In this document: positions 11,147-62,290 of the stretch, piece by piece
How positions within the stretch are numbered: the first letter of the stretch is position 1
Layout: each line of letters starts with the position of its first letter
The notes under the pieces: generated by a model
What the model was told of the DNA's origin: nothing
Database searches by the model: none
The model's input: the letters and a program-made list of their open reading frames with translations, nothing else
Origin: Medicago truncatula
Lineage: Eukaryota > Streptophyta > Magnoliopsida > Fabales > Fabaceae
Reading direction: 5' to 3'
NCBI RefSeq assembly: GCF_003473485.1
Contig: NC_053044.1
Span: 57,080,091 to 57,144,090 of the forward strand
Length of the DNA: 64,000 bases
Translations under genes and position numbers: made by a program

Positions 11147-11190
11147 ATGTGTGTGGTAATTTTATAGTAAATAATATAGTTTAATTTTAT

Positions 11191-11200
11191 CCTTGAAAAA
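11191..11200 (+). repeat. A-tailed micro-insertion CCTTGAAAAA
   Basis: Ten bases between two perfect 17-bp copies of ATATAGTTTAATTTTAT (11174-11190 and 11201-11217). Confidence 0.7.
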
Positions 11201-11786
11201 ATATAGTTTAATTTTATGTGGGTGGCATTGAAAGTGGTTATGATTAAAATAAAATATTTTAAATGATCTAACACTAGTGATGGTGGATAGTGTAAAAACA
11301 GTTATGCCGACGTTATATATGAATTAAATTCATAACAATTAAATTATTTCTACAAAATTGATATTAAGTAGTCTTTTTCTTGATGTTCTATAAGTAAAAC
11401 TCAAATGGTTGTTGCAAACAAACACATTTGATATGGAGAAACATGGGTTCAATCTTGTAATTTTTCATTTCTCTAACACTTAAAATTAAATATTTGAGTT
11501 TTTCTCCTTGACTCTTTAGAACCAAAAAAAAAAAAGGTATATTTTCTTCTTCTTATTAATTATTATTATTAATTTAAGGAATATTTTCTTATTATTATTT
11601 TCTTAAAACAAATTATTATTGTTTTTTTTTCGCGGTTGTTCCCGAATGTGAACAAAATTAATACGAGTCATAATAATTGACTAAATTAATTGTATTTTTT
11701 TTCCTTCCTTAAAAAAATATACAACTAATTTAGTCAAATATACAATTAATGATTTTCAAACCAATTACAATAAAAAATAATGAATA

Positions 11787-11801
11787 TCCTTAAAAATTAA
11801 A
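11787..11801 (+). repeat. A-tailed micro-insertion TCCTTAAAAATTAAA
   Basis: Fifteen bases between 15-bp direct repeats AAAAAATAATGAATA (11772-11786 and 11802-11816). Confidence 0.65.
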
Positions 11802-12041
11802 AAAAAATAATGAATAGATGATAATGATAGCAGTTCAATTAAAAATATTTTTAATTAACCAAAAGAGAATACTAGTTTCCATTAAAAAAATGAAGAGATT
11901 TGACTAAAATTTTTAAATTAATGAACATTGAAAATGAAAAGAAAGGGATAAGAGGGAAGTAGAAGAAAAAAAACCACAAAAAAAAAAAAAAACAAAAGTC
12001 TTGGAATTCATCCAAATAGTGATACCAAAGAGCAGTCGAAT

Positions 12042-15238: not shown

Positions 15239-16176
15239 ATTAGTCCCTGCATTTTCGGCACTTTTTTATATCAGTCACTGCACTTTGGTATTGGTCCCTT
15301 AACCATTTTTTTAAGATCTTCCGATGATATTATTAAGTTTTATTATTATTTTGTCCATTATTTTTATTGAGAATAATTCTAAAAAAATAAAATAAAATAA
15401 GAAATCCTTTTTAAACAAGGATTAAGCTTTAATCGCATTGCATCGTCTTCTCTAACTGTGATGTCTCTGTCAATTGAGTTATGTTCACGGGGACTATTGA
15501 ACAAATTATTAAAATTGGTGAAATAAGCGAATTAAAAATATATTTTATACTAAAATTATAAAATTAATAACAAAATATTTAAATTTAATTATCATTGAGG
15601 AGTATAATTTTTTCGTATCTATTTACTTTTCATGGGAGGATAACATATATTTTAACATAGGATTGGAGGAGAGGATAATTTAAGGTTCTCTTAGAGGAGA
15701 AAAGTGGAATTTAATTTGAAAATGATTTCTTACTAATAAATACCTTCTTAAATATTTAATAATAACTCAAAATTACAACATGACCATCATTCCAAATTTA
15801 CATGTTTAACGACTAACCATTCTCACGACATATATTTTTAAAATTTTCCCCTTTTTATTCTATTGTGTTTGCCTACTTGCTATATGACGACCATTATCAT
15901 ATTGCACAAATAATGGTGATTTAAACTTTAATTGTGATTCATCATTATTAAAGAATCCATAATGGTGAATGCTCAAGAAAGATGATGAGATTTACGATTA
16001 AAGCTTAACCGTTCTTTAAAAAGGATTATTTTTATTTTATTTTTTTATAAATTTTTAGGGTAATTTTTTATAATTATTCTAAAAAAAAAATAATTAATAA
16101 ACATAATAATATCATTCGAAGATTTAAAAAAAAAATTAAGGGTTATAAAAAAGTGATAAAAGTGCAGGATTAGAAT
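15239..16176. mobile_element. Decayed long inverted-repeat element
   Basis: 15239-15440 and 15985-16176 are imperfect inverted copies. Matching marks are the paired TTAAGATCTTCCGATGATAT / ATATCATTCGAAGATTTAA blocks and the AATCCTTTTTAAA...TTAAGCTTTAATCG blocks. The centre holds a piece of the tRNA-headed SINE. Exact ends and any target duplication are unclear. Confidence 0.5.
15447..15494 (-). mobile_element. SINE fragment (GTCCCCGTGAAC head)
   Basis: The minus strand begins GTCCCCGTGAACATAACTCA, the box A end of the tRNA-headed SINE family. The box B half is missing. Confidence 0.5.
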
Positions 16177-16273
16177 TTGGAGCATTTTATAACATGAAAT
16201 AGAATTTGGAGCATTTTAACTTCAAGGATTAGTTTTTTGTCTATACTCTACTATACAATTTATGTTTCAGGTC

Positions 16274-16293
16274 CTTTCAAAAAAAAAAAAAAA
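16274..16293 (+). repeat. A-tailed micro-insertion CTTTC + A15
   Basis: Twenty bases (CTTTC then only A) between 14-bp perfect repeats TTATGTTTCAGGTC (16260-16273 and 16294-16307). Confidence 0.75.
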
Positions 16294-16671
16294 TTATGTT
16301 TCAGGTCACTTTTACTTAATATATTTAAATTTAAATCGCTTTTAAACAAAATCAATTTTACAAAGTCTTACCCAAAATAAATTTTTGTCACCTCACAATA
16401 AACACACATTAACTTCTAAAAATTCATTTAGTTCGGGAAAAAGTTCATGATACTTATGGATGCTTATACTACTTAAACCTGTTTAAGCAAAGAGACACTG
16501 TGTGGACCAAGTGCGTACATACTAGATTTGGTTAAACAAACCAAAAGGATCTGACACATGAAACTATATCTTTTTATAAGGAAAGACACCAGCCCTGTAA
16601 ACCTCAGACCAGTGGACCATTATCCACAACAATATATGCATGTAAAAGTCAACCAATTATAATAGAATTCT

Positions 16672-16687
16672 TTTTCTTTTTTGAAGA
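16672..16687 (-). repeat. A-tailed micro-insertion TCTTCAAAAAAGAAAA
   Basis: Sixteen bases between 17-bp perfect repeats AATTATAATAGAATTCT (16655-16671 and 16688-16704). It lies just downstream of the ARID-HMG gene's stop. Confidence 0.75.
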
Positions 16688-16736
16688 AATTATAATAGAA
16701 TTCTAAGGTCTTCTTCTGCTGCCAAAAGGGATAGAT

Positions 16737-23777: not shown

Positions 23778-24147
23778 CTTTCTGTTCAAAATTTGCTATA
23801 CTGCGCTGGGGTGTTTTATATATAACAGAGTCGTTGGCATTCTACATTTACTTTGAAATAAATTGAGTATTTTTTATTTTTTTGTTATTAGACAAAATAA
23901 ATTGGGAGTCAAATATACATTACTTGTCTTTTTTTGATAGAATATAATACACATTTTTCTGTTAACAACAAAAACTATTTGGTTAAAGTTATAGACCACA
24001 TACATCATTTTTCAAATGAATTTAAAATGTTAAATTTTGTTTATAATAGTAACGAGAAGATCTATATACGTATTTATTTTTTAAAATTGTTTGTATAATC
24101 ATTCAAATTGTACCCCTACATGTAGCAATTTTTCAACACTTGAGTCT

Positions 24148-24238
24148 TTTTTTTTTTTTTTTTTGTCTGAGGTTCGACCTCAGATCTTACATATATTATG
24201 TATTTGTCCTTATCAACTGAGCTAAGCTCACGGGGACA
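24148..24238 (-). mobile_element. tRNA-headed SINE with perfect target duplication
   Basis: The minus strand starts GTCCCCGTGAGCTTAGCTCA and has GAGGTCGAACCTC at box B, then a long A-run. Perfect 13-bp flanks AACACTTGAGTCT occur at 24135-24147 and 24239-24251. Confidence 0.85.
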
Positions 24239-24632
24239 AACACTTGAGTCTCTAAGTGGCCGTAGGTTATTCATTTGTGTAGCAAAACACTCAAAATTTG
24301 AATTTTCAGCAACATAGTTGTCTTTTAATTTTTATAGAAAAAAATAGACGTAATTTTTTTAGTATGCCGAAAAAACATGCCTAAAAAAACAAAAAATTTA
24401 TTTTTTGGGAAAACTAAATTTTTGACATTCAGAATATTTAATTTTCAAATAATTGAGTTTTTTGAATTTTGGAAAAGAAAATGTCTCCATTCATTTCATG
24501 ATAATTGACATATTTACTAAAAAAAAATCTCAAGTTATCATATTATAATAATCTATGTGGTATATAATAAAGACCACATACATCATTAATTGAATGAATC
24601 TAGAATGTAATTTTTGCTTATCATTATAATAA

Positions 24633-25072: not shown

Positions 25073-26401
25073 GAATTTTTTTTTTTTCTGACCCTATTTG
25101 CCAAAAAAAATCCAGCTATGACCCCCTTTGAAATTTTTTTACAGAAATGACCCACTTTTTTTTTTTTTTTTTTTTTTTGTCTTTTTCCTCGTTCCCGCCA
25201 TCTGAAATGGCGGGACTGAGCCGCCGGTACACGTGGCGCATCCTGACTGGCCACTTTTTTTTTTTTTTTTTTTTCTTTTATTACCGCCATTTGAAATGGC
25301 GGGACCCCGCAGATTTTGACACGTGTCAGCCGTTTTTTTTTTTTTTGTCCTGTAGTGTATTCAGAAAATTGAGAAAAAATTTCAATTTTGTTCCCAGAGA
25401 GAATCGAACCAGGCACGCGTGAGACATTGCCAGGCTGCGTTACCACCAAGCCAATAAAGATTTGATGTTAATGTTTGCATCCAATAATATATATACCATT
25501 TTTAAAACCAGATTCACACACCATGAGGCATGAACCATCCAATTTTTCATTTTTGTTTTTTTATTGGATAATTTAGGATCTCCGACGAAATATATTTTGA
25601 TAAAATATCCGACGAATATATATATATTATTATCCGACAAAATATATATTTTTCACCGATAAATTATCCGACGAAATGATTTATATATTATTTCAAGATA
25701 AAATCTAAAATCCAATTAAAATTATAAAATCTCCTATATTTATTTTTTAGGTGAATTCACATTAAATTTTTTTATTGTTTTAAGGTGAATTCGCCTCACT
25801 TATTCATCTTTAAGGTGAATTTTTCTAGCCACTAGGCGATTTTATAAAAAAAAAAAAATCACCCCGGCCACGGGCACCTCAATTATCCAATAAAAAAAAT
25901 AAATATAGGAGATTTTATAATTTTAATTGGATTCTAGATTTTATCTTGAAATAATATATAAATCATTTCGTCGGATAATTTATCGGTGAAAAATATATAT
26001 TTTGTCGGATAATAATATATATATATTCGTCGGATATTTTATCAAAATATATTTCGTCGGAGATCCTAAATTATCCAATAAAAAAACAAAAATGAAAAAT
26101 TGGATGGTTCATGCCTCATGGTGTGTGAATCTGGTTTTAAAAATGATATATATATTATTGGATGCAAACATTAACATCAAATCTTCATTGGCTTGGTGGT
26201 AATGCAGCCTGGCAATGTCTCACGCGTGCCTGGTTTGATTCCCTCTGGGAACAAAATTGAAATTTTTCTCAATTTTCTGAATACACTATAGGACAAAAAA
26301 AAAAAATAACGGCTGACACGTGTCAAAATCTGCCGGGGTCCTTCAAAGGGGGTCATAGCTGGATTTTTTTTGGCAAATAGGGTCAGAAAAAAAAAAAATT
26401 C
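25073..26401. mobile_element. Fold-back Mutator-like element, copy 2
   Basis: Same ends as copy 1, with a perfect 9-bp duplication GAAAATGGT at 25064-25072 and 26402-26410. The long left-arm block with the two GGCGG hairpins (about 25140-25340) is again on the left. The right arm is shorter but keeps ACACGTGTCAAAATCTGC. The loop (about 25740-25890) is in the reverse orientation to copy 1. Each arm carries one tRNA-like box A/box B stretch. No transposase. Confidence 0.88.
26188..26250 (+). repeat. tRNA-like module in the element arm
   Basis: TTGGCTTGGTGGTAATGC resembles a pol III box A and GGTTTGATTCC, or GGTTCGATTCC in sister copies, a box B. The same module occurs at 25394-25460 and 8926-8990 (minus) and at 9708-9770 (plus). 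I could not fold it into a full tRNA. Confidence 0.45.
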
Positions 26402-27169
26402 GAAAATGGTAAGAATACGTGGCGGTAAGAGTACAATTCGAGGGGTACGGGTGAGGAGAATTTTCCAAGGAGAATACCATCTGACCCAAACAGCACAGTC
26501 CATTAGCAGAGTATTTTTAACATAGACGTCAAAACCTCTTCTCCATAAAACTTCATATTCAATTTTGGTGGTGAGTCAGTGTAATATTCCTTTGCATGCC
26601 GCTCAAATTTCGATTTTGGAGTTATCTTTGTTTTAATCACATTCCTTTGATTATGTAGACATGTTTTAGGGTTTCTATAGATAGATTTAGGTTTATCTGC
26701 TTTTGGTTGTTTCAATGTTTTGTCTCTCTTTGGATCACAAAATCTAACTATATCATTGAATTGTTCTTTTCAGATATTTGTTTGAGAGAAATCATGGATG
26801 TCATGACAGATTTGGGAGTGTCCTAAACATTTCTCACAGCCAATCATACACACAGGTTTCCTCTTATTCTTGTTATTATTTGATGATATTTATGGTTTAT
26901 TTGGAGTCCAACAAAATAAAATTAGATTCAATATTCTAAAATATGATTTTTACGTTTATAGCATCAATGATAGACGAATAAATGAAAGATTGTTTTAAGG
27001 AGAAACTTTTACATTTACTAGCGTCTAGTTAAAATGAGCATCGCAACACGAATTGCACTTCAGCGACAAAATGTGTGACATTGGCGAATCCAATCTTGAC
27101 ACGCGGCAATGCAATTTTTTTTAACATAAAATATCGTGAAAGAGAGAGTGAGAACAATTGATTTGTCTT

Positions 27170-27181
27170 CCTTCAAAAAAA
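27170..27181 (+). repeat. A-tailed micro-insertion CCTTCAAAAAAA
   Basis: Twelve bases between 17-bp perfect repeats AACAATTGATTTGTCTT (27153-27169 and 27182-27198). Confidence 0.8.
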
Positions 27182-27502
27182 AACAATTGATTTGTCTTAT
27201 GTGTCAAAATTGGATTGATCAATGTCACGTCACATTCCCGCCATAATGTCAGTGAAGTGCAACCCCAATCAACACAACAAGTGGCGGGGCGGAGACAAGA
27301 AAAAGAAAAGCTCAGTTATCAAACTGAATGTTGTTTGGATAGTTTTTATCAAAATTACTTTTGAATATATAATTACTAAAATAGACATAGCTAAATTCAA
27401 GTAAAGTGTATAGTTGAATATATGTATATGTAGATCAATACTAAATGTAAATTATTATTTAATTTAAATAAATAAATTTTCTATATATTAATTTAAAACA
27501 TA

Positions 27503-41751: not shown

Positions 41752-42089
41752 AACAAAGTATTATAGTGCACTCTATTTATCAAATTTTAACTTTTCCAAA
41801 ATATAAAAAATAAAAATAAAAAATAAAAAAAATTGGTTGAAAAATAAATATTTTGAACAACTCAAAAACTAAGTTTCCCCAACAAAAGAAAATATGGGAA
41901 ATTGAAAGTAGAGTTTTCTGAAGCGTGTTTTTACGGCAAATTCAAAAAAAAAAAAAAACTTTTTTTTTCTTCAAAAACAAATATGTTCCAGAAAATTCAA
42001 CTTTTTAGTGTTGTACACACATGAATAACCTACTGCCACTCAAGTGTTCAAAATTGCTAGATGTAGGATAACATTTTGATTACATATTT

Positions 42090-42109
42090 CCCTTCAAAAA
42101 AAAATAAAA
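42090..42109 (+). repeat. A-tailed micro-insertion CCCTTCA9TAAAA
   Basis: Twenty bases between TTTGATTACATATTT (42075-42089) and TTTGATAACATATTT (42110-42124), 14 of 15 identical. It lies immediately left of a MITE. Confidence 0.75.
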
Positions 42110-42126
42110 TTTGATAACATATTTTT

Positions 42127-42429
42127 GGCTAAAATATGGTTTTAATCTCTGCAAATATGCCTTATTTTAGTTTTAGTCCCTGTAAAAAAAAATTGTTTTT
42201 GGTCCCTGCAAAATTTTTTGTTTTTTAAAATAATCTCTAACCCCATTTTTGTGATGATTTGCATACGTGGCACATGATGACTGAACCCATTTTGTAGTTT
42301 TTGGTCCCTGCAAAATATTTTGTTTTTTAAAAAGGTCCCTGCAAAATTTTTTGTTTTTGAAAATAGTCTCTTACAGGGACTAAAACCAAAACGAGACATA
42401 TTTGCAGGGACTAAAACCATATTTTAGCC
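42127..42429. mobile_element. MITE, GGCTAAAATATGG family, copy 1
   Basis: Ends GGCTAAAATATGGTTTTAAT / AAAACCATATTTTAGCC. Flanks CATATTTTT (42118-42126) and CATATTTAT (42430-42438) match at 8 of 9. Internal GTCCCTGCAAA words repeat in both orientations. Confidence 0.8.
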
Positions 42430-42502
42430 CATATTTATTTATTTTATAACTGGATTCGGAATTTTTATGGTTTGAAAGAACGACCAAACAAATTTTTTTT
42501 TT

Positions 42503-42729: not shown

Positions 42730-44259
42730 TGTTGAAAATTGAAATAAATTTCAGTATTGAAAAGTACATAAATCGTCTTTTTATATGAAAAAAGAAATAG
42801 AAGATAAGAAAAATCTATGGAAAGTTGGAAGACTGAATGTTAATCTTTCATATAACACCTCCTAAACCATGCAACTATACTCACAAACGAAAGAAAATGT
42901 TCACTGTTCACTGATATTCCACTAAGAACATCATGTCAAATAAGTTGTCAAAAAAAAAAAAAAAACATCATGTCAAATAATGTCATGAATGAAAAATATA
43001 AATTTATGTGGACAAAGTTTGTATGCCACCAACAAAATAAAGGTGCCAAGAATAAAATCAGATCAAATTAGTAAGAATAAGTAACAACTGTAGCGTTTTC
43101 ATCGCTATTTTGACTGCAAACAGGTGAACCCCACATATTTCATGTATTTAGAAAGTCACTTAACTGGAGTGTAACAGCTGATGCAATGTAATATGATGTA
43201 GATATGTGCACACACAAAGAGCTGCGTATGAATTAAATAGGAGCGGATATATCTATCTCCCTGGATTCACAAACTCGTTTCACTGAAAGAGAAAGAATCT
43301 GGAGAGGAATGATATTCAAGCTTAGCTAAAAGCATGTCCATGGTAAATGAAAACATTCAACAATATGGTAGAATGACAAGACACATCTACAAGGATATAC
43401 TAATAAAACTAGTAGTTGACTATAGTCAATCATTCATAGCAGCAAGCAACAAAAAAAGCTCAGAAGTGCTGCTATGCTACTGCTTAATTGAGTTGTAATT
43501 CAAACTACAGTATTGAGCAACAGAAGAACCCTGGAATTTGAAATATAGTGTAAGGGGATCAACTATAACCCTGCCTCTCAGGTATAGAAATGATTCTTTG
43601 AAACAATCAGAGATTATGGACCAGCAATTGCATCATACCATTGGTGCCATACAAGTTATGTCGGCAATGCAATCTCTAGTAGAATCAAACTCGGGTTCTC
43701 AAAAAACTCAACTATGAAAAGGAGATAAAATTTATTTAAAAAATGAAAACAAAACAATACATGTAGAAAATTTTGACCATTGAACCTGAAGTGTCAAAAC
43801 ATAATTTTGAAACAGCTCATTGTTGTATAATACCACACTAATCTTATATTTAACACAGCTAAACAGCATAATTGTAAAACTGCACAATGTTTAGAAAAGA
43901 AAATGTGCAACATTGGGTAATGAATTTCACAAAATCCTGAAAATGCAATCCTTCTTATTTCTTTTGAATGACATTTTGTACAACAGCTCCTTCAGATATG
44001 AAACAGGAAATCAACAAGTTAAATAAATACATTATGCAATACTGAAATCTGAACATGCCGCCCCTGTCCCTCCCTGAATCATCTGAACATGTCTGCTTAG
44101 CATCTTTTCATATTGGAGAGAATTCAAATCCCAAACCAAATATAGTGGAAAATTCCCAGTAGACATCCCTGACAAATATACTAAACAAATGATCTAAAGA
44201 ATCTGAATTCTGAATTACATGATTAGTATGTAACTAAGAAAAAATATTCTAGTAGCCAA
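42730..44259. other. Intergenic, no gene recognised
   Basis: AT-rich, holding one micro-insertion. No supported coding frame. Confidence 0.45.
42944..42963 (+). repeat. A-tailed micro-insertion GTTGTC + A14
   Basis: Twenty bases between 17-bp perfect repeats AACATCATGTCAAATAA (42927-42943 and 42964-42980). Confidence 0.8.
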
Positions 44260-44842: not shown

Positions 44843-46018
44843 TTAGCAAGGATTTGGCGAAATCCAAATTGGAAGTGGGCATTCTAACCGAGAATATGAA
44901 TTTCGAGAATAACTGGGCAATAGCGGGTCAATGATCCCATCATATAATCTAAAGATGCCAAAATCATGTTTCCCACAAGCATCATCATGATTATCCTCTG
45001 AATAATCATCCGTGAAATAGATACAATCTCCACAACATCCTACAAAATCACCAGCAGAAAAACACATTGAAGAATTCACCCCAACAAACAAAGCCTTATC
45101 ACCCAACGCTTCAATTCTATTCCATGCCATGGCATTCCAATCCATCTTAAAAACCGTAAATCCCACCGTCCTATACACAAGCATATCATAATTGGGTTCA
45201 TCCGAAAAATCCTCTTCCAAAACCCGATTTACCAACAACATATCCTCACCAGAGAACACCACATAGTGAATATCCCCGGAGAATTGAACAGGCACCGTCA
45301 TCTGAAAAATGGAAACTCGATGACTATTAACATCGCACACAGCAATTGTTCCTCCTTTGCTGACAGCATAAAACAATCCATTGTAATACACAACATCTTC
45401 CCAAAAATAGTAATCATTCTTTTTGGTTAGGAAAATCCAAGAATCATAACCTTTTTTACAGAAAGCCAGATTATTACAACTATAACCATCAACAATAGCA
45501 AGTGCAACGAATTCATCGCTAAGCGAAGGGCTTGTTGACAATACAATTTTAGCTATGAAATCATCACACATTTGTCTCAAACTAAAAAATCTTAAATAAC
45601 TATCGTTTGTAACCGAATACTCACGGCCGATATTTGAATAATCAAAGCTTACCACGTTAGGGAAAGTGTGAATAGGAGGAAGAAAAAGAGTGACACATGT
45701 TAAGGGATTAAAAAGACGAATCTGAGGGGTTTCATTGAGAATTATGAGCCAGCCATGAGAAGAAGCGCAAATACGAGTGCGATGAGAAGGAAGAGGAAGA
45801 TTGAAGAGATGGGTTTTGTGGGTGGAGATGTTGAAGAAGGATTGGTGAGAAAGAAGGAGGCATGGGAGTTGAGGTGGGAGATGGTGAGGGGTTTTAGGAA
45901 TGGAAGATAGGAAGGTGTGAGAGATGGATCGGAATCGGATGTAATCGGCGTAGATTGTTAACTTTTGTGAGATTGTTTGTATGATTTCTGGTGGTAGTTC
46001 AGACCAGTCCACGCTCAT
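44843..46018 (-). CDS. F-box protein with DUF295 domain (SKIP23-like), paralogue
   Basis: Single-exon frame of 391 residues from MSVDWSELPPEII. The F-box is at about 4-40 (WSELPPEIIQTISQKLTIYA). The DUF295 region has ICASSHGWLIILNETPQIRL, FCKKGYDSWIFL, VFSGEDMLLVNRV, GCCGDCIYFTDD and a PIWISPNPC end. Likely an SCF substrate adaptor of unknown target. An in-frame ATG at 46075 would add 19 residues. The inner start is preferred because it matches the paralogue at 36806. Its 3' flank (44340-44480) resembles the flank of the relic (40900-41050), so the two minus-strand copies look like tandem duplicates. Confidence 0.87.
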   Translation of the reverse strand: MSVDWSELPPEIIQTISQKLTIYADYIRFRSISHTFLSSIPKTPHHLPPQLPCLLLSHQSFFNISTHKTHLFNLPLPSHRTRICASSHGWLIILNETPQIRLFNPLTCVTLFLPPIHTFPNVVSFDYSNIGREYSVTNDSYLRFFSLRQMCDDFIAKIVLSTSPSLSDEFVALAIVDGYSCNNLAFCKKGYDSWIFLTKKNDYYFWEDVVYYNGLFYAVSKGGTIAVCDVNSHRVSIFQMTVPVQFSGDIHYVVFSGEDMLLVNRVLEEDFSDEPNYDMLVYRTVGFTVFKMDWNAMAWNRIEALGDKALFVGVNSSMCFSAGDFVGCCGDCIYFTDDYSEDNHDDACGKHDFGIFRLYDGIIDPLLPSYSRNSYSRLECPLPIWISPNPC

Positions 46019-46143
46019 CTTTGTTTTCTCACAACCTTGATTCAATTCTTCTTCTGGTTTTGTTTGCACACGCATCTTTTGCTCACATCTCTCTATCCAT
46101 CTAACTTTTTTGTTAAGTTTAAATTTAGTTTTTTTTATTTTTT

Positions 46144-47567: not shown

Positions 47568-47583
47568 AAACATCATACATAAT

Positions 47584-47674
47584 GTCCTCGTGAGCTTAAC
47601 TTAATTGGTAAGGACAATGCATTAAATATGTAAGGTCCGGGTTCAAACCCCGGCAACCACCAAAAAAAATAAAA
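47584..47674 (+). mobile_element. tRNA-headed SINE with perfect 16-bp duplication
   Basis: GTCCTCGTGAGCTTAACTTA head, box B GGGTTCAAACCCC, tail CACCAAAAAAAATAAAA. AAACATCATACATAAT is repeated exactly at 47568-47583 and 47675-47690. The youngest-looking copy of the family here. Confidence 0.92.
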
Positions 47675-47820
47675 AAACATCATACATAATAGTTAAAGTT
47701 GAAAACCCTAAATTAACCAAGTTTATGGCTTACGGTATAACAAGATTCAGGATCCTAAACTCATCATGACAAGTCAAAACTCATCCACAACCTAAATTTT
47801 CTTTTAGAAAATGGAATGAG

Positions 47821-47837
47821 TTTGATTTAAAAAAAAA
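47821..47837 (+). repeat. A-tailed micro-insertion TTTGATTTA(n)
   Basis: Between AAAATGGAATGAG (47808-47820) and AAAATGGGATGAG (47838-47850), 12 of 13. It lies next to the hAT element's left flank. Confidence 0.5.
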
Positions 47838-47862
47838 AAAATGGGATGAGCTTACAAGTGGA

Positions 47863-50800
47863 CAGGGGCGACTACACCCCCAGCTAGCCTGGGCTAATGC
47901 CCGGGCTCTGCTTCTACTTTGTTTGGTAAAAGCCCAACCCAATAGCCCAATTCCTATTTAAAAAAAGGGGCAAAATTGTGTTATTTTTTCAGGCGCGTAG
48001 TAAAAATAAGTGACTCTTCTCCTTCAGTTTAGAATAGTAACTCCATTCTCCCTCTCTTCTATGTGTCTTTGTTTCACTTTCTTCACCTTCAGTTCAGAAT
48101 AGTAGCGCCTCTCCCTCTCTCAACTCTCAGTCTCGGTCATTTTCATTCCTTCTCCTCTTTCTCCTCTTCAGTCTCCACTCTCCTCCACCAGGTTTGTTCT
48201 ATGTTTTTTTTATTTGTTCTATTTTATTGATGCTCGTTTGTTATTTGTTACAGGATGAATCAATGAGTTGATTATTCAAATTTCAAACCACAATTTAGAA
48301 TTGTTGATTATCCTCAATTTTGATTTCCCAAACCCTAATTTAGAATTGTGCATTTTGTGTGATTGAGTGGAGAGTTTATGAAAGAATACTTAGTTACTTA
48401 CGGTTGTGAACTTGTGATCAATTGATTATTTGATTATAAGGTTCAAGGTTGTGATTATCACAACTTCAATTTATAATGTGTGCATTTTGTGTTAATTGTT
48501 AAATACTTTCATTTTGTGTGGTACATACTATACGATTGTGATTTTTGTTGATAGAATTGGTATCTAAATTCACAAGTACTTGATTCTCTGACCTTTATTT
48601 TTGTTAACATTCATTTTCTTCTTGTTTTGCTTTGTTTTTTATCAGACCAGTAAAAAATTATATGAAATAATGAGAATTAAAATTGTGAATTGTGATGTTT
48701 TCAAACTCTTATATGTGATATATTATCTTCTGTATAAACTTTCAGAGATGAGAAAATTTTTGGTTGATAGAACAAGTAATGTGAATGTTGTGCAACCGGA
48801 AGCCGAAGTAGAAGAACCACCACCTAATGTGGCCAATGAGTTTAATCCAAATGAGATTGTACGTGATCCAGGTCGTAGGAAACAAATTCATACATATGCT
48901 TCGGATATTCAAGACCAAGTGAGGAGGGCATAGATCTTGAAGGGTCCAATGCAACCAAATTTGTCAAGTTTTCCTCGTACTCTATTTGGGAGTCAAAGAA
49001 GAGCATTTTGTAGCTCATGGTATAAGAAGTATACATGGATTGAATACAGTGAGTTCAAGGATGCAGCTTATTGTTTCTATTGCTTTCTATTTAAGCAACC
49101 CGGGAGGGCCGAGTACTTTGGTTTCGATGTCTTCACCAAAGACGGATTTAAAGATTGGAAGCATGCATCTAAAGGCTTGAAAGATCATATTGGTAGTCAT
49201 AATAGTATGCACAACTCCTGTATCAAGCATTATGATGATTATAATAATCAAAGACAAAGCATAGAAAGTAAGTTAGCTAAAGCAACTAAGGAATCCGAAG
49301 AATTGTATAAGATCTGTTTGACTTGTTCTCTAGATTATACTATATATCTCATAGCACAAGGCATTGCTTTCCGTGGCCATGATGAAAAAACTACTTCTCT
49401 AAACAAGGGTAATTTTAGAGAGATGGTAGATTGGGTAAAATCTAATAATGAACAAGTGAGATATGCTTTTGACCGTGGTGGAAAAAATTGCATAATGACT
49501 TCCAATGACATTCAAAAGGAACTTTGCAGAGTGTTGTGCATATGAAGTTATGAATGTGATTATGGAAGAGCTTGGTGATAAACAATTCTATGTGCTTATT
49601 GATGAGTCACGTGATATATCCGTTAAAGAGCAAATGGCGGTGATGTTGAGGTTGGTAGTTATATTTTCTAATTTATATTATCCGTCAAAGAGCATTTGTG
49701 ATTTTCTTAGGCATATTTATTCTATGTTGCTTTCCCGCATCCTTATTCAATCATAAAACCATGTTGAACCTTATTCACGTTAATAATGCCTCATTCACTG
49801 TTTCATTATGCTACAATTAAACTGATTTGGCATATTATGTTTCTAGGTTTGTGAACAACAAAGGGGAAGTTGTGGAACGATTTATTGCTCTACATCATGT
49901 CAAAGATACTACTTTTAAGGCACTAAAGAATGCTCTTTATTGTATTCTTGAACGTTACAAGTTATCTATTTCAAGGATACGAGGGCAAGGATATGATGGA
50001 GCTTCAAATATGATAGGTGAATTTAATGGTTTGCAAAGAAAGATTCTAGATGAAAATCCTTATGCTTTCTATGTCCATTGTTATGCTCACCGCTTGCAAT
50101 TGGTGATTGTGTCTGTTGCTAGTAGTTGCTCATCTATTAATGATTTCTTTGAGTACATCTCCGTGATTGTAACAACATCAAGTGCATCTTGCAAGAGAAG
50201 GGATGCTTTGATGGAGACACAACACAAAGATATTTTGAAAAAACTTGAGAGTGGTGAGATATCTACAGGAAGGGGCTTGAACCAATCATCTACTCTTGCT
50301 AGAGCCGGGAATACTAGATGGGGTTCACATCATACTACATTGCTTCGTTTGGATCAGATGCGGTCCTCCGTGTTAGTGGTGCTTAGTATGGTTCATGAAG
50401 ATGGACGTGGACCATCTCAAGCGGCGGGTTTGATAGAAAAGATGGAGAGCTTTAAATTTGCTTTCATTTTGAAGTTAATGTTAAAGTTGTTTAGTATCAC
50501 AAACGAGCTTTCAAAAATCTTGCAAAGAAAATATCTTAATATTGTTAGTGCCATGGAATTAATTAATGTCGTCAAAGCTCGGTTGGCCACATTGAGAGAT
50601 AATGGTTGGGACAATTTATTTGTTGATGTACAAGAATTTTGTGTTGCTAAAGGTATTCCGGTGTCAAATATGGATGAAGAAATACCGGTTCGGGGTCGTT
50701 CAAGACTAGAAGGGAGGGCCGTCACTAATCTTCACCATTACCGTGCCGAGATTTTTTATGTTGCTATTGACAAAATATGTGTGGAGATGGATCATCGCTT

Positions 50801-51480
50801 TAGTGAAGGAAGTAACATTGTACTTGATTGCTTCTCATGTCTTGATCCCAAGAACTATTTCTCTAAGTTTGATGTTGATAAGCTTGCTCATCTTGCTGAT
50901 ATTTATCATGCAGACTTTTCTGATGATGATCGTGGAACAATAAGGAAGCAACTTGACACTTACGTACTTCAAATGAAAAGGCATGCTTCCTTTTCTTCTT
51001 GTGAAGATGTTCAAAGTTTGGCTATGAAGATGGTTCAAACTGAGAAACATTTGGTATTTCCATTGGTCTACAAACTCATTGAGTTGGCTTTGATATTGCC
51101 GGTGTCGACAGCTTCCGTTGAAAGAGCTTTTTCAGCAATGAAGATTATCAAGACTAAATTGCGCAACAAGATCAACAATGGATGGTTGAATGACTTGATG
51201 ATCTGTTACACCGAGCGGGAGATATTCAAGTCACTTGATGATGTTGATATTATTCGAACATTCACTCGAAAGAGGTCACGGAAAGGGCATTTACCTCCTA
51301 ATTTTATTTAGCACGCTATTGACAGGTTATATTTTATCTTTCTTATTTTAAGTTGTACTTTTGTTGAAAAAATGACGAACTTCTTTTATTTCGATTTATG
51401 ACTATTTGTATATATTATATCACATGAAGTTGCGATAAATTTTTTGCCCAGGCTCTATGAAATTCCTGGTTTCGCCACTG
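47863..51480 (+). mobile_element. Near-complete hAT transposon
   Basis: 3618 bp from CAGGGGCGACTAC to GGTTTCGCCACTG, with imperfect inverted ends (CAGGGGCGA / CAGTGGCGA). The octamer CAAGTGGA flanks it exactly at 47855-47862 and 51481-51488. It carries one transposase gene. A short derivative is at 22777-23107. The exact duplication and near-open reading frame suggest fairly recent insertion. Confidence 0.95.
48748..51311 (+). pseudogene. hAT transposase (TTF zinc finger, DUF4371, hAT dimerisation), two lesions
   Basis: Starts at ATG 48748, just after an acceptor-like CTTTCAG. The TTF-type zinc finger lies around 48990-49110 (FCSSWYKKYTWIEY, DAAYCFYCFLF). The DUF4371 part has FRGHDEKTTSLNKGNF, then VLIDESRDISVKEQMAV and ISRIRGQGYDGASNM. 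The C-terminal hAT dimerisation block reads LPVSTASVERAFSAMKIIKT. Intron 49651-49846 (GT/AG) keeps frame across into the long last exon. Two breaks are visible: a TAG at 48931-48933 and a one-base frame change between about 49516 and 49545. The family cuts and pastes DNA with 8-bp duplications. The protein is probably not made as it stands. Confidence 0.9.
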
Positions 51481-51488
51481 CAAGTGGA

Positions 51489-52627
51489 TTGACTTTTTTG
51501 GTTAAATAGTTTATGTGGGTTGGTTTGGATCTGAATGAAGTCGTTACTCGTATTTGTTGACTGATTTTTCAATTTTGCAAACCATTGATACTCATTTATC
51601 CAACTCAAATTGTTGAATGAGGTCGTTTCAAACCGGTTTGGTAGGGTCTTCCAATTTTACCCAACCTATGTATTCATACAATTTTTAATTTGAGAAAAAT
51701 CATAAGTAGTTAAGTTTTTTTTTTTATTTAAAGATTATTTTATTAATAAAAGTCTACAAATAAATTAAAATTCAAAACCGCAAAAATATAAGATAAAGTA
51801 TCTTCAATTCATATATAATAATAAGCATCTTAGTTAGAATCACACTTAACATGTAAAATATGTAAACTATAAAGTAAACATTAAAATAAATATAATGCCT
51901 AATAATAGAACCAACATAAGTAAAAGATTGTTCTGTCAAAAAACAAAATAAGTAAAAGATTGTTGATGAGCTTTTAACGCCATAACAACATTTGAAAAAA
52001 TTAATTATGCTATAAGTTCCCTAAAAAAAAAAAATCATTCAAATTTCAAATCATTCAGCCTAACTAAAGCTTTTGTTACCTCTTAATATGATAATGAAAT
52101 AATTTGCCAACAACCAGCAGCAACTATGGCACCACGATACGGATACTCCACTTACCCCTTTATATCAAACATATTGCATCAATATTAAGCTTATATCAAC
52201 TGTTAAAGGGTGGTGTCCTGTGAACATCAAATATATGTAAATTTGGACTTTCACTTAGCGTCTTTAACAACACACTACACTAACACTCTTAAAATTAGCA
52301 ATAAATCTCTTTGTCGATTGAACAATGATAACCACATCAACATCAATCACATCCAAATATTTTTTATTTATAACAAACTATATTTTATAACATAAGGCTA
52401 GCACATGGACTATAATATTCTCATTTCTATTAATAGTATTTCTTTCTAATCACTTTCAAAATGGTATGTAAATGGAATCATGCAAATAAAAAACCACTCC
52501 TAAAGTGTAAGAAAGTCACATGTTTTGAGAGAATAAAAGTTGAAACCGGAGAATCCATTGAATTTTGAAAGAAAAAATATATATTAATTGAAAAAGGATT
52601 CTAACATTAAATATTATGATGTACTTA
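51489..52627. other. Intergenic, no gene recognised
   Basis: AT-rich with one micro-insertion (51933). No coding frame supported. Confidence 0.5.
51933..51947 (+). repeat. A-tailed micro-insertion CTGTCAAAAAACAAA
   Basis: Fifteen bases between 17-bp perfect repeats ATAAGTAAAAGATTGTT (51916-51932 and 51948-51964). Confidence 0.8.
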
Positions 52628-53327: not shown

Positions 53328-53633
53328 TAATTCTTACTACGAAATAGTGGTCTCCATTATAATAAACACATTGTGGCTAGGAGCATTAGGTGAGAGGTGG
53401 TCCACTTAGACACCAACTAATGGCTCGTAATCATGGATAATAGTGGATTCCTCTGGCATCGAATTCTTCAAATCAGGTGATCAAGAAGTCATGCAAGTCC
53501 CTAGCCACTTTCATGCTCTAGGTAGTAGTAGTAATCTTACTCCTCTCAAATTGCTTTAATATTCAACTACTAGTCAGCAAATTAGCCAAATAATCCGCTT
53601 ATTTAATTGCTTAATGGCTACTACTTTATTATA

Positions 53634-53648
53634 TTTTTTTTTAAGGAA
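53634..53648 (-). repeat. A-tailed micro-insertion TTCCTTAAAAAAAAA
   Basis: Fifteen bases between 16-bp perfect repeats CTACTACTTTATTATA (53618-53633 and 53649-53664). Confidence 0.8.
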
Positions 53649-54786
53649 CTACTACTTTATTATAGTATATCTATTTCTAATTTTCTATTATTGCTTTACC
53701 GTGTTATTTAAAAGTGAAAACTTGCGATGCAGCAAAGCAATAGAAACGAAAACGATAAGAGGTAAGCGTCTTTTTTAGGTGAAGTTTAATGGAAACTTGG
53801 TTTCCATTATGGAAAAGTTTCAATTTCCAGGACACCTGTCAGTGGGTTATCTCTTTGATAAAAATAAATAAAAAATTGAAAATTGTTATTTAATGTTGTT
53901 TGTTTTTTCTAATGCATCTTTTCCTATTTACTATTGCTTCACATCACTTCGATTATTTCGAGAAGACCACCTCATTAATTTCCTTCCCTTCGACCTTCTC
54001 TCCACCAACTTATTATTTTTTTCTTTGACAAGAACAAAACTCCTTCTCTCCAACAGCTAAAAATGAAACTCAACATATCCATGGAAAAATAATTCCAATA
54101 GTTTTTCAAACAAAAAAACCTAAATCCAATCCAAGAGTCTCAATTTACAGCTCACACATATCAATAATGCATTTGGATCTACAGCTCAATAATATCCAAT
54201 CCAAGAGTTTTAATAAATCTGATTCATATCAATAAACTACTTCTCTCAGTTTTCAATTTATTTATTCTATATAACTTTCTTTTTATTTTTGTAGCTCTGA
54301 TGAAAAATGAAAATGAATTATTTTTGCAGATCTGAATAAAAATAAAAATGAAGGAGGAAGAATGAGGAAAACACCCAAAATCTCCATGAAAACACTCAAG
54401 AATGAATAGAATTAGAAATTTTGGGGGGAAAAAAAATCTGAATTAAAGGGAAGAACCGAGAGGTGAACATGAAGAAAGAAGAACTGAGATGAATTTTTGG
54501 AAGAGAACTTGAAAACCATCGAATAATTGACATGCAGGAGTCTTCTTATTTTAATTACCTTTTATGTTTGTATTAATTACTAGTAATTAAAAGAGAAGTT
54601 CTAGAGTATTCTTGTTTTGATTTTAAAATAATTTTAAAAGTGATTTTAAAAGTAATGAAAAGTGATTTTAATTGATTTTAAAAATGATTTTAATGCATTT
54701 TATTAATAGTCAACAAATTTATTTTATGCCACACAAATGGTTCACATAAATTGATTTAATGCCACACAAAATAGTCTAAATAAATT

Positions 54787-54798
54787 CCCTCAAAAAAG
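54787..54798 (+). repeat. A-tailed micro-insertion CCCTCAAAAAAG
   Basis: Twelve bases between AAATAGTCTAAATAAATT (54769-54786) and AAATAGTCCAAATAAATT (54799-54816), 17 of 18. Confidence 0.75.
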
Positions 54799-54824
54799 AA
54801 ATAGTCCAAATAAATTTATTTTAT

Positions 54825-54836
54825 ATTTCTGAGGAA
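54825..54836 (-). repeat. A-tailed micro-insertion TTCCTCAGAAAT
   Basis: Twelve bases between 17-bp perfect repeats AAATAAATTTATTTTAT (54808-54824 and 54837-54853). It overlaps the right repeat of the previous micro-insertion, so two events hit the same spot. Confidence 0.65.
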
Positions 54837-55252
54837 AAATAAATTTATTTTATTGACATTAGTTATCATTTTTATCTAATATTAACAACTGATTAATTGC
54901 ATATCTCTTTCCTAATTCAAATTAACATGGAATGATTAAAATGAGATGAAAAATGTCCAGCCGTATATTTGACTTAGAAACAACGAGCCCAAATTTTTTC
55001 CAAAGGCTCGTGATTTAATAAAAAAAAAACAAATATATCACACAAATGAAAAATGTTATTTAATCATATAGTAGGGTCCACGTTTTTGTCTCATAGTGCT
55101 CAACAAAAAATAACAGCAAGTATTAGGTCATTGATCCTAGCCATCCAAATAAAATACTATTATAATTATGGTTGTGGTTAAACTTTCCCATAGTGGGAAA
55201 GAATTTCCCTTTCCCATGCTAAACTCCACCTCCTTTTTACCCTTTTGTTTAT

Positions 55253-57008: not shown

Positions 57009-57059
57009 TAGTACTAACTCTTGGTCAAAAGAAAAGTTAACTTTTGTATCTAAAAAATA

Positions 57060-57508: not shown

Positions 57509-57978
57509 TAAAAAATAAATAAAATACTGGGAGGGAAAAAAGTTAGTATAAATTTATTAGCATGTGAATTAATTTGTAGCTTCTAATGAAACTACTCCAT
57601 CCGTTCATATATCTAAGCCTCCATTTAACTTTATTTTTGTCCTTAAATGTAAATCCCCTTTCAATTTACTAGATGCATTTATTAATTTTTTCTAAACATA
57701 TTCCCAATTAATACTACTAACTTATCTTGAAATATGAAACCATCTAAGATGGGGAGTCCATCTCCTATTAAGCACCATCGTAAATAAGCACCCCCTTTGT
57801 GACATCGATAAATATGATGCTTATAAAGGTGGGTGTTTTTATAGGCACCCTCTCTCTCCTATTACTCATAGGTCCCACGTGTACAATTAATTCTATTTAT
57901 ATATATATTTTTAATTACTGTATTATTTTGATATTAAAAAATAATTATATAATAGTCGTAAATAATAGTTGAATTTGA

Positions 57979-57989
57979 TTCCTAAAAAA
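57979..57989 (+). repeat. A-tailed micro-insertion TTCCTAAAAAA
   Basis: Eleven bases between AATAGTTGAATTTGA (57964-57978) and AATAGTTAAATTTGA (57990-58004), 14 of 15. Confidence 0.7.
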
Positions 57990-58660
57990 AATAGTTAAAT
58001 TTGAATTTGCCTGTAGCATAGCCGTTGAAAATTAATAAAAATTGTTTTTTTAAGTTTTAACTTTTTCTTGAATTATTAATAAAAATAAAATAAAAATGAT
58101 CGTTTTTTAATTATTTATAATAAATTATTTTAATATTTTAAAATTATATAATTATGAATGAGTATAAAAATTATTGTTAAAATGTAATGATATAGAGTTA
58201 TTGCTGAGACCCAATTAATAATTATTTTGATGTGTTGGGTTGGAGAGATTGAATGTTTATTACGTATTAATTATAAAACGAATGATATGTACAGTTGGGA
58301 TCCATTTAAGCACCTAGATGGGATGTTGCATTGTGGATGATCTTAACACACAAAACAGACACATTAATTACATTGACAATATTTCTTAAGAAATGTAAAA
58401 AAGATAATGGATGCCTACGGTAAAGGAGGGAGCGAGTACTTTACAATTACAATGAAACTATTTTACATAATCAGAGGAATTTCATACTGTAGTACTGTAC
58501 CAGTAACTCAAAACAAGTAACGGTTGATTACTTCAATAATGTCTTTTTTAATCCTTTCTTACCTTTTGTTCTATAGAGTATATAGTGTTATTTTGTACGG
58601 TTTCACTACTCACACCATTTGTTGAACAGTGAATTTTGCATCAAAACTCACAAGCAATGG

Positions 58661-58804
58661 CATCTCCGTCTCAAAATATAAGCAAATTTTATTTTTTAGG
58701 TTCTTTCAATTAATGGTGTATGTGGTTCATAATATGGACCACATACATCATTAATTGAATGAACCTAAAAAGTAAAATTTGCTTATATTTTGAAACGGAT
58801 GGAG
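58661..58804. mobile_element. Stowaway-like MITE
   Basis: CTCCGTCTCAAAATATAAGC and GCTTATATTTTGAAACGGAT are inverted. The right end is GGAG followed by TA. Confidence 0.7.
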
Positions 58805-58813
58805 TATATTTAT

Positions 58814-58956: not shown

Positions 58957-59606
58957 TATATTTATATCTACGGTTAAAGCTAAGTTCTTTATCGATCAAA
59001 ACCTAGTTATATTCCATGCAGTAGAATTTTTTTTTCTTTTTCTTTTTTGAGTGATGCATAAGTAGAATTCTTCAATTTAACATTTGTAATATTGCACATG
59101 TTAAAGAGATTAAATGTAGCAAGTTTTTATTAAAAAACAATAATTATTTATTAGAAAATTTACATACTTAATATAAAATGTACAAATTTTAACATAAAAC
59201 TACTATTTTAAACTTCTTAACCTATGCAAATTTGCTCACTATTCTTCAATTTATTTTTCAAAGCATATGCTTTCATTATTTGTCTTTTTTTTTTTAGTTT
59301 TTTTAGAGGGTGTATTTATTTATTACCAAAAAACATTATTTAGTGTATATCTGGAGTATTATACGGTAGATGTCAAAATGAATTCAAGTTCCCTGCAGAC
59401 ACAAACTAATTGCCATTTGAGTGGAATGAAACTATCAACCATTAATTTAAAGACACTACATTAACTATTTTGGTCATTTGAACTTTGATTTTTTTACTAG
59501 AAATTGAAAATTAATTTGAAACTAATAATCTACACCATATGATTGTGTAATATTGTTCTAAAGTGGACAAAAGGCCATCCAATGATATTCAAGTATGATG
59601 GACATA

Positions 59607-59622
59607 TTCTTAAAAATAAAAT
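59607..59622 (+). repeat. A-tailed micro-insertion TTCTTAAAAATAAAAT
   Basis: Sixteen bases between 14-bp perfect repeats GTATGATGGACATA (59593-59606 and 59623-59636). Confidence 0.7.
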
Positions 59623-59793
59623 GTATGATGGACATAGTCAAATGTTGATCCACTAATTAGAGTGGAAATAACACAACGTCCTCAACTAGCATTGCCTTTA
59701 AAACTTCTTAATTAAGAAGTCTTCACCATATAACTACTCTCATCGAGAGCAAAGTCGATGCTACTATACCTCATCATCATCTCATTTTTTATA

Positions 59794-60090
59794 GGCTAAA
59801 ATATGATTTTAGTTTATACAAATGTATCGTTTTAGTTTTAGTCCCTGTAAAAAAAATGTAGTTTTTGATCTCAGCAAAATATTTTTAAAAATCAAAATAT
59901 TTTGCAGGGACTATTTTTCTACAAAATGGATTCAGTCATCATGTATCACGTGTGCAAATCATCACAAAAGTGAGGTCAGTGATCAAAATCAAAACGAGAC
60001 ATATTTGCAGGATCAAAAACTACAAAAAAAAATTATCAGGACTACAATTAAACGAGACATGTTTGTAGAGACCAAAACCATATTTTACCC
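59794..60090. mobile_element. MITE, GGCTAAAATATG family, copy 2
   Basis: GGCTAAAATATGATTTTAGT and ACCATATTTTACCC ends, with the same internal words as the element at 42127. Flanks are T-runs, so the duplication cannot be fixed. Confidence 0.7.
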
Positions 60091-62290
60091 TTTTTTTTAT
60101 TTTATTTTTGAGAAATTTTAGCCGAAGAGTGCTTATCACCGCACAATTCCTTGCCGAAGAGCTTTCATTGATTGTCGTCCTCTATTGCTATGCCTGTTGA
60201 ATCAAATATTCATAAGAGGGGTGTTTGACAACACACTTTTCAACATAATACTATCTTTTAATGATTGTAATCCCTTGTATAAATTTGGTGAGATAGATAT
60301 GAATATCACTAAAAAATATAGGTTGAAAAATGCGTTAGAAAATGTGTTGGTAATATAAATATATTTGTAATTATAATTTTTTTTACGAAATCTAATTAGT
60401 GCTCAAAAGATACATGCTCCATCATTATATATAGTGCTGGTATTTTTCATTGTTCCAATGATTTAATCATAGCTCTGACAATAATTCAACAGGCCAACTG
60501 GTCCGTACCTCACAGAGTAATAAAACAAGGAAAATGGGTGAGGAGAGGAGACACCATAAAACAAAGAAAATGAATGTGGTATCAACCGATCTTGATTTCT
60601 TTTGTCTTTGTTGTTTTGAATTCAAATTCGTGAAAGAGATTAAAACATTAAATTGTGTGGTAGAGGATGGATGAATCATGAATGGTTAGATTTGAAGCAA
60701 TAAATAAGGCAAGTAAAAATGGAGTTGCTCTCATAAATGCAAATATAGAAAAAGGAAGTGGTAATTATTTGTGTGGGAGTTTGTTCTTGTGTATAATTAA
60801 TATTTGGGGTTTTGAGAGATTTTCTAAGGGCGTGGGTTTATGGTTGTGGGTGTGATGAGTGCGACGTATCGAGTGACAAAAGGGAGGAAGATTAAATCAT
60901 ATCTTTTGTGCCTTTGTGGTGTCACTCAGAATTTATTCCATCTTAGAAAAAAGGAACATCAGAAGAGGATAAAAATGTGATTATTGGAGATATTGACCAT
61001 ACTCTTTCTTTCTAACCTACGCAATGCAGGGCCTTTGAAAAGTATCACTAGAAAAAAATTGTTTTTGATTGCACCACATATACACTAGAACTTGCTTTCG
61101 AGCATGTTATTTTCACCACAGCATAACAAATCATCTCTTCTGTTATTTTTCCAACATTAGAGTTCGGCAATAACAGCCCAAACCCAAAGCATCCACGATA
61201 TTCACTACTATTGATGTTTTGAGTTTGAAAACAATACAGCATCATGATTTAAAAGATTTGAATATTAAAAGGCCAAACAAGCTATGACCTAGTAACCTAG
61301 TAGTCAAACTAAGAAAAGAAAACGTACAAAGATGGAGAAAAATACAGCATTAGAGTCTAGAGACCGGTGGATATAATATACGCTTAGTAGTAGTACTGGT
61401 GTATTCACTGACTTTACCAACGTTGATTAACCCACGCGCCATGAAAAGAGTGTGCTTAATTGTCTCACTTTTGAATAAAACGTTGATGTCAGAGTGTTCA
61501 ATCATGGGCCTAGATTTGTGTTCAGATAAAGGTTGTATGAAATGAAGAAAAAGTATTCGGCAATAGGGAAGAAAGGAAGGAAATATGAGTCGTCGTAAAT
61601 TAATGCTTTGCTTGATGGTAGTACTATGTTGCCTCTTCGAATACGCAAATCATGAAAAGCAATTAAATCGCTACCAATTTTTAAATTTTAAATTAATTTT
61701 TAGTCAGGATAAGAGAAGCATATTCAACACAATACAGATCAGTGGCGGCCATGCATAATCTCCTACTGCAGCTTGCAGAAAAAATAAACGCGTTAAATTA
61801 ATTAAGATCTAGATGACAATATCACATCAAAAAAAAATGGCAATAGCACTTAAAATCAGTAAAATAATTCGATAAAAAGACCAATTATTTCTAGTACCCT
61901 TCTGGTGGCTAGATCTATAATCAACAAGCATCAACCAATTATAAAAAATAAAATTAGTGCAAAGGCGTTCGATTCAACCCTAAAGAGGTGAAAGCAAGAG
62001 CAGGCTCCTGAAACCCTAGACCGTAAATACATCTTAGAAATACAGGTTTGTATAAATAAATATAAAAAACGTTAAAAGATAAATACTTCGTTGTAATTAT
62101 ACCCAATCTATACAAATTATTACAGGAAATTACAAGGGAAAACTTTTAAATTAAAGTGAAAGAAAATTATGAAGGTATCCACTTTACAAATAAATGGAAA
62201 ATAGATTATAAGCAGAGGCAGAAAGCGACTTTTTTTATCTGATTTCACCATCCATCTTTTTAGCAAGGAAATTCTATGAGGATCCTGATT
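60091..62290. other. Intergenic or MIR394 downstream region
   Basis: No coding frame supported. The part nearest 62290 may belong to the MIR394 primary transcript. It carries one weak micro-insertion (61826). Confidence 0.45.
61826..61837 (+). repeat. A-tailed micro-insertion ATCA(n), weak
   Basis: Between TGACAATATCAC (61814-61825) and TGGCAATAGCAC (61838-61849), 10 of 12. Confidence 0.4.

Follow-up and report, generated by a model that had tools for sequence, protein, structure and literature searches.

Short A-tailed insertions in Medicago truncatula as probable, extremely 5'-truncated products of L1 retrotransposition

The window analysed here is a stretch of 64,000 nucleotides (nt) of the Medicago truncatula genome (assembly GCF_003473485.1, NC_053044.1, positions 57,080,091 to 57,144,090), which sits on a contig of 58.9 Mb in an assembly of 429.9 Mb. 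Scattered over it are very short insertions, here called stubs, which in the orientation that puts the A-tail last consist of a target-site duplication (TSD), a head of a few nucleotides, the A-tail and the second copy of the TSD. The strong sites among them are in all likelihood extreme 5'-truncated insertions made by target-primed reverse transcription (TPRT) by long interspersed nuclear elements (LINEs) of the L1 clade, i.e. an unusual product of a known process. The evidence consists of the duplication, the A-tail, an L1 terminus for about half of the heads, an excess over controls, and an unoccupied paralogue for one copy.

Stubs in the window and their excess over controls

A sequence-only reading of the window had described about 20 sites of one design. 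The 20 coordinates were re-scored for a TSD (+1 for a match, -2 for a mismatch), and sites with a score of at least 12 were considered strong. This holds for 16 of the 20 (11191, 11787, 16274, 16672, 27170, 34242, 38600, 41734, 42090, 42944, 51933, 53634, 54787, 54825, 57979 and 59607), with inserts of 9-20 nt. Three further sites are weaker, namely 22546 (score 11), 47821 (10) and 35136 (9), and site 61826 is unsupported, with a score of 7 in the same re-scoring. For 41734 and 54825 the re-scoring gave the plus strand, but with the tail last both read on the minus strand. The putative L1 stubs, together with two short interspersed nuclear elements (SINEs) for comparison, are as follows.

11173-11217, plus strand: stub, TSD 18 bp, head CCTTG, A-tail
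11772-11816, plus strand: stub, TSD 15 bp, head TCCTT, tail AAAAATTAAA; removed from the exact-repeat count by the low-complexity filter
16260-16307, plus strand: stub, TSD 14 bp, head CTTTC, A15
16655-16704, minus strand: stub, TSD 17 bp, head TCTTC, tail A6GA4
27153-27198, plus strand: stub, TSD 17 bp, head CCTTC, A7
34227-34273, minus strand: stub, exact TSD of 15 bp, A14, apparent head C, or TGTC with the bases common to head and TSD included
35121-35167, plus strand: probable older stub, imperfect TSD of 15 bp (score only 9), head CCTT, tail A6TA5C
38585-38629, minus strand: stub, TSD 15 bp, head CCTTC, A10
41718-41767, minus strand: stub, TSD 16 bp, 9-nt head TTCTTCTTT, A9
42075-42124, plus strand: stub, TSD 15 bp with one mismatch, head CCCTTC, tail A9TA4
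42927-42980, plus strand: stub, TSD 17 bp, head GTTGTC, A14
47808-47850, plus strand: weak candidate (score 10), TSD 13 bp with one mismatch, head TTTGATTT
51916-51964, plus strand: stub, exact TSD of 17 bp, head CTGTC, tail A6CA3
53618-53664, minus strand: stub, TSD 16 bp, head TTCCTT, A9
54769-54816, plus strand: stub, TSD 18 bp, head CCCTC, tail A6G; two paralogous copies carry it too
54808-54853, minus strand: second stub, reversed relative to that at 54769, head TTCCTC; A-tail uninterrupted in the C2 paralogue
57964-58004, plus strand: stub, TSD 15 bp with one mismatch, head TTCCT, A6
59593-59636, plus strand: stub, TSD 14 bp, head TTCTT, tail A5TA4T
47568-47690, plus strand: comparison element, tRNA-like SINE with A-tail and TSD of 16 bp
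24135-24251, minus strand: comparison element, SINE with TSD of 13 bp; unoccupied paralogous site near 42040

A survey of A-runs in the window and in about 260 kb from elsewhere in the genome found 79 A-runs with duplications, of which 13 have heads of 0-3 nt, 38 of 4-9 nt, 11 of 10-20 nt and 17 of more than 20 nt, with peaks at 5 nt (18) and 6 nt (10). Scanning these sequences again under stricter conditions, with heads of at most 220 nt, gave 7 at 0-3 nt, 23 at 4-9, 3 at 10-20, 9 at 21-60 and 18 above 60 nt, the last class including SINEs. From the 38 rows with 4-9-nt heads, ten that resemble other repeats were dropped (window 42328, L005 2909, L010 8959, L012 1912, L013 3979, L014 8115, L017 6213, L022 3557, L027 3107 and L027 3102), some of which, e.g. 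L027 3102, may be real stubs. The remaining 28 curated stubs have heads of 5.7 nt on average (standard deviation 1.1) and tails of 9.3 nt (standard deviation 3.8), and the two lengths are uncorrelated (rho -0.02). Their TSDs measure 12-21 bp, with a detector floor of 12 and roughly 7-20 bp expected for L1 insertions, and their A-tails 4-20 nt, the A-run having been a search condition. Several tails are interrupted near the far end (A6GA4, A5TA4T), as in the SINE at 47568. Heads are mostly pure pyrimidine with varying letters, and contain 10% A over all 38 rows before curation.

Exact spaced repeats were counted with repeats of at least 14 bp and inserts of 4-40 bp, low-complexity repeats being excluded; the window holds 17 of them, against about 0.1 per shuffle in 30 third-order Markov shuffles. 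Eleven of these are A-tailed stubs and six are other repeats (3214, 16171, 35075, 42303, 42374 and 54636). When an A-tail is demanded (duplication at least 14 bp, insert at most 40), ten remain, including the non-stub at 42303, against none in 20 shuffles. In a further 221.7 kb from elsewhere in the genome there were 52 raw matches, against 3, 0 and 2 after flank swaps between A-runs; 14 of the 52 belong to the curated set, and most others represent different repeat structures. A-runs of at least 10 preceded by five pyrimidines have duplications in 9 of 28 cases, other A-runs in 10 of 135 (p=0.001). Genome-wide, CCTTC-A10 occurs 2124 times against 122 for its backward control (17-fold), TTCCCTTC-A10 at 60 loci against 6, and ATTTACC-A10, the end of another L1 family, at 70 loci against 34. 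A control head, GTTTATCTTC-A10 with one mismatch allowed, gave 36 against 21 backward, so that other heads before A-runs also show a small excess. The comparison with chance on which the sequence-only reading had made itself depend has thus gone in its favour.

Two of the other spaced repeats are perfect duplications lacking stub structure and possibly reflect break repair: one of 16 bp around a 28-nt insert (3214-3273), and one of 19 bp around a 10-nt insert (16171-16218).

Outside the window an unoccupied site could be identified for a single stub, L135 (on C4), which lies within a repeated inverted-repeat element. Two paralogues in L021 are unoccupied at this site, each with one copy of the duplication and three gap positions, at 74% and 69% identity. 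No unoccupied site was found for the window stubs that were tried, and among the matches listed none covers 16274 or 16672. The SINE at 24135-24251 is present in one copy of a diverged repeat and unoccupied in the other (about 42000-42080), a clean empty-site pair. Compared with the A/T-rich, T|AA context expected of the endonuclease, target sites of the stubs show a weak bias to A at -2 (p=0.007) and +2 (p=0.02), with p=0.11 for A at +1 and p=0.51 for T at -1; the bias at -2 and +2 resembles a plant nick motif, as given in the accessible text of PMC2848041. The segment at about 53810-54990 has paralogues on C6 and C2, and the two stubs of opposite orientation lie at the segment end in all three copies.

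L1 3' ends and the heads of the stubs

L1 copies were located by their zf-RVT domain, with 150 places scored out of 6220 first-look candidates, and 3' ends were read from 79 short stretches spanning 67 L1 copies, some of which stop short of an end. The ends vary by family, and include ATTTACC, TTTGCTT, TTTATC, TTCCGTC and TCTCTTC, among others. One stretch, L062, with an RVT_3 domain upstream, ends in AATGAAATG..TAAGC..CTCTTC-A(n). It exemplifies an L1 group of the form AATGAAATG..TAAGC..(Y-tract)(A)n, with ends that include CCTTC, TCCTT, CCCT, CCCTC and CCCTTC. The group pattern AATGAAATGNNNTAAGC gave 77 forward and 156 reverse matches, the reverse figure counting loci repeatedly, and none for the backward control. 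Among the matches listed are 55 loci, with ends TTTCCCT, TTTTCCTT, TTTCCTTC, TTTCCCTC, TTCTCTTC, TTTCTGT and others.

These ends were compared with 32 heads, i.e. those of the 28 curated stubs and of four window sites read by hand. An exact suffix of one of the 55 listed group ends was found for 17 of the 32 heads, and of one of 30 other L1 ends for 5 of the 32. The frequency of C is similar in heads and group ends at position -4 (0.62 versus 0.64) and at -3 (0.44 versus 0.51). In an earlier comparison with 39 L1 ends, which lacked CCCTTC ends, the heads had appeared richer in C (-4, p=0.0045; -5, p=0.023), and the agreement at -4 emerged once the matching L1 group was used instead.

On this comparison of short termini, the head is best taken as the final few letters of an L1 3' terminus, with an exact match for about half of the heads. 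This supports the proposal of the sequence-only reading that LINE machinery inserted almost nothing but a tail, and its suggested comparison of heads with LINE 3' ends came out positive, albeit with a partial list of group ends. Its argument that a recurring head speaks against end-fill repair also stands. On one point it calls for correction: the stubs do not look like a separate family with its own head. The heads vary in the way the last letters of L1 subfamilies vary, and another L1 end (TTTACC) gives stubs too.

Truncated SINEs were rejected as a source, since the SINE ends in the window (CCACC, CACCGC and CAGAC) differ from the heads. A 19-nt head at L010:4418 was considered as a clue to the template and dropped, being an internal repeat of another element.

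Stubs, longer copies and competing explanations

Of the 60 TTCCCTTC-A10 loci, 20 were fetched; 13 are stubs by a uniform detector (15 by looser inspection, which adds L124 and L125), three are long L1 copies ending in AATGAAATG..TTCCCTTC-A(n) (L126, L133 and L138), and L129 and L139 are neither. For CCTTC-A10 the sample comprised 20 of the first 100 places listed, all on the first 18 Mb of C1. Here the uniform detector found 15 stubs in 20, with L158 as a possible older sixteenth. Two of the 15 heads measure 5 nt, six 6 nt and four 7 nt, and the others 10, 11 and 15 nt; the sample contained no recognisable longer copy of the AATGAAATG..TAAGC group. Pooled, the two samples contain 28 stubs, 3 recognisable longer L1 copies and 9 loci that are neither among 40; this ratio counts loci rather than events, and longer copies may be lost or have their ends altered more often. 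For ends of the CCTTC type, a stub would then seem to be the usual outcome of an insertion.

The same approach with ATTTACC-A10 gave 3 stubs in 20 fetched loci, with heads TTTACC, TTTACC and ATTTACC (6, 6 and 7 nt), and three long copies of the ATTTACC L1 family (L164, L168 and L176). The stub fraction is lower than in the CCTTC sets (3/20 versus 28/40, p=8e-5). Head length is much alike for the two L1 ends, although the seven-letter pattern mostly leaves out shorter heads, and so may be a property of the machinery rather than of the pyrimidine tract. In the same sample L162, L163, L169 and L179 share a similar sequence, with differences, of the form GAGTTTATAATGG.TTTGTCATTTCGTCTATTTACC-A(n), and apparently belong to another retroposon family with ATTTACC as its terminal letters.

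We propose that the L1 enzyme would nick the target, where the poly(A) tail of the L1 RNA would anneal. Reverse transcription would then copy the tail and only 4-9 nt (mostly 5-7) of the 3' untranslated region before stopping, and a second cut and repair would follow, leaving a duplication of about 12-18 bp. The lack of correlation between head and tail length suggests that the position of the stop is measured from the poly(A) junction rather than from the primer. If so, the enzyme might release once the rA:dT hybrid leaves its cleft, or the template RNA might end there. We see about an even chance that the stop represents an abortive step of early elongation, a few nucleotides past the junction of poly(A) and body, rather than random 5' truncation. 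A more tentative extension, which we consider possible but would not bet on, is that L1 reverse transcription, like transcription by RNA polymerases, passes through a step of abortive initiation, and that most L1 insertions in this plant are stubs of about 15 nt. A cleft holding only rA:dT hybrid would correspond to the initiation state; after 5-7 nt of non-A template had entered, the homopolymer hybrid would leave the cleft and most complexes would release. The target would then be sealed, and only complexes that escape would yield real L1 copies. A hairpin roadblock at L1 3' ends was rejected, as folding showed hairpins near the end in some families, and none consistently at 5-7 nt.

Several observations weigh against an origin of the stubs by L1 truncation, or limit how far it can be taken. 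Fifteen of the 32 heads (e.g. CCTTG, GTTGTC, CTGTC, TTAGAC and TTTTGAC) fall outside the listed ends, which are a part of the group. The match of 5-mers (17 of 30) is only moderately in excess of a column-shuffled mean of 11.6 (p=0.018), that of 4-mers is no better than the column-shuffled null (22 versus 21.7), and C at -1 differs between heads (0.56) and group ends (0.35). The curated set was cut by judgement and chosen for 4-9-nt heads, which bounds its spread of head length, and the search patterns required 5, 7 or 8 head letters, leaving shorter heads mostly unsampled there. The target motif is a weak one, and the tail itself imposes part of it. As to empty sites, both paralogues carry the stubs at 54787 and 54825, a pattern search for less diverged empty copies of the L135 site with at most 3 mismatches returned only the occupied copy itself, and the unoccupied evidence consists of paralogues of one stub, with no pair of occupied and empty alleles from another plant or accession.

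Among the alternatives, the one we take most seriously, although we doubt it, leaves reverse transcription uninterrupted: the template would be a tiny RNA left over when L1 mRNA decays, with the tail and about 5-7 nt of body shielded by poly(A)-binding protein. It would account for head lengths that are independent of tail length and, allowing that the patterns set a minimum, about equal for two different L1 ends; nothing in the analysis shows such RNAs, however, and longer L1 copies share the same ends (L126, L133 and L138). Ordinary 5' truncation over a broad length range, of which only the shortest class was noticed, is improbable. Longer truncated L1 copies with TSDs do exist (L012, 187 bp; L018, 1467 bp), and the raw A-run list has its 11 heads of 10-20 nt and 17 above 20 nt, most of them read as other repeats. 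Such a range is difficult to reconcile with 28 stubs against 3 recognisable longer copies in the 40 same-terminus loci, or with the stricter scoring, in which 23 heads of 4-9 nt stand against 3 of 10-20 and 7 of 0-3 nt.

The variable letters and mostly pure-pyrimidine composition of the heads could also point to a non-templated, purine-rich addition at the 3' end of the cDNA, or to filler from break repair with a tandem duplication. This is very improbable, given that L1 ends with the same letters exist, that the stub heads TTTACC and ATTTACC agree with an L1 end of other than pyrimidine composition, and that three SINEs in the window have at most one extra base at their 5' junction. Slippage, or a tandem duplication that chanced to include an A-run, is hardly credible: the six spaced repeats without stub structure show that other duplications occur in the window, but the 17-fold excess of CCTTC-A10 over its backward control argues against it, as do the unoccupied L135 paralogues, in which the duplicated stretch is single and the head-plus-tail insert is missing. 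The sequence-only reading would have yielded to slippage without an empty site; L135 and its two unoccupied paralogues answer this, for one stub only and outside the window.

Known elements, significance and other features of the window

The stubs resemble 5'-truncated insertions made by L1-clade TPRT in their TSD, A-tail and L1 3' terminus and, less clearly, in a plant-like nick context. They differ from the usual truncated L1-clade copies in keeping only 4-9 nt of body, and in outnumbering longer copies in same-terminus samples. For human L1, the available part of PMC12016303 gives median insertion lengths of 394 bp (somatic) and 1240 bp (germline), under detection limits that differ from those here. 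Partial Sadhu elements of Arabidopsis, likewise 5'-truncated retroposons with a TSD and an A-tract, have been described as compatible with abortive retrotransposition; they retain recognisable element sequence, and the accessible text describes no 5-7 nt class for them (PMC2848041). In maize, annotation had to separate SINEs from severely truncated LINEs, with a screen that, according to the available text, used the last 30 bases of the LINE consensus and would thus be unable to see 5-nt stubs (PMC2774510). Among the titles and abstract openings that a literature search listed, no description of a 5-7 nt LINE insertion class was recognised, which is weak evidence since most subscription papers lie outside its coverage.

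With tRNA-derived SINEs, which share the window, the stubs have A-tails and TSDs in common, but the SINEs here carry a body of 74-82 nt with tRNA-like sequence. Identity with such SINEs was rejected, since a body with internal A and B boxes is absent and the inserts of the 16 strong sites measure 9-20 nt. Miniature inverted-repeat transposable elements (MITEs) have terminal inverted repeats and TSDs of 2-10 bp. The stubs were rejected as MITEs as well, because their inserts are too short and their TSDs measure 12-21 bp. For Medicago, MT_SINE families are among the tRNA-derived SINEs listed in the accessible part of PMC3747384. Searching viral contigs with the SINE sequence yielded a single locus, which contains tRNA-gene sequence and has no bearing on the stubs.

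If the stubs are general, the visible L1 copies would be a minority of L1 insertion events here. Contig C1 has 13 curated stubs in 200 kb, which by rough extrapolation would give about 28,000 in 430 Mb, versus the 6,220 first-look zf-RVT candidates. Insertions so short would escape homology-based annotation of transposable elements and most calling of structural variants. The stubs would seed A-tracts and short direct repeats, and would record how far reverse transcription ran; with a stop near 5-7 nt, the problem of why LINEs truncate becomes accessible to direct tests in vitro.

Other features were noted in the window. Two oppositely oriented genes encode KIB1-4 beta-propeller proteins (36662-37870 and 44843-46141), the first with an F-box. 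Remains of a hAT-type transposase, with DUF4371 and hAT dimerisation domains, extend over two reading frames at 48934-51311. An abundant MITE-like element with inverted copies lies at about 42127-42450 (1.6-kb query, 40 of 1467 first-look candidates scored), and the regions at about 9180-9510 and 25650-25990 have sequence in common in inverted orientation, as seen from mirrored matches. Rfam matches in the window are to MIR2593, MIR5298 and MIR394. At 58676-58788 the MIR2593 model fits both strands nearly equally (99.4 and 96.6 bits), which may point to a palindromic element instead of a clear microRNA gene.

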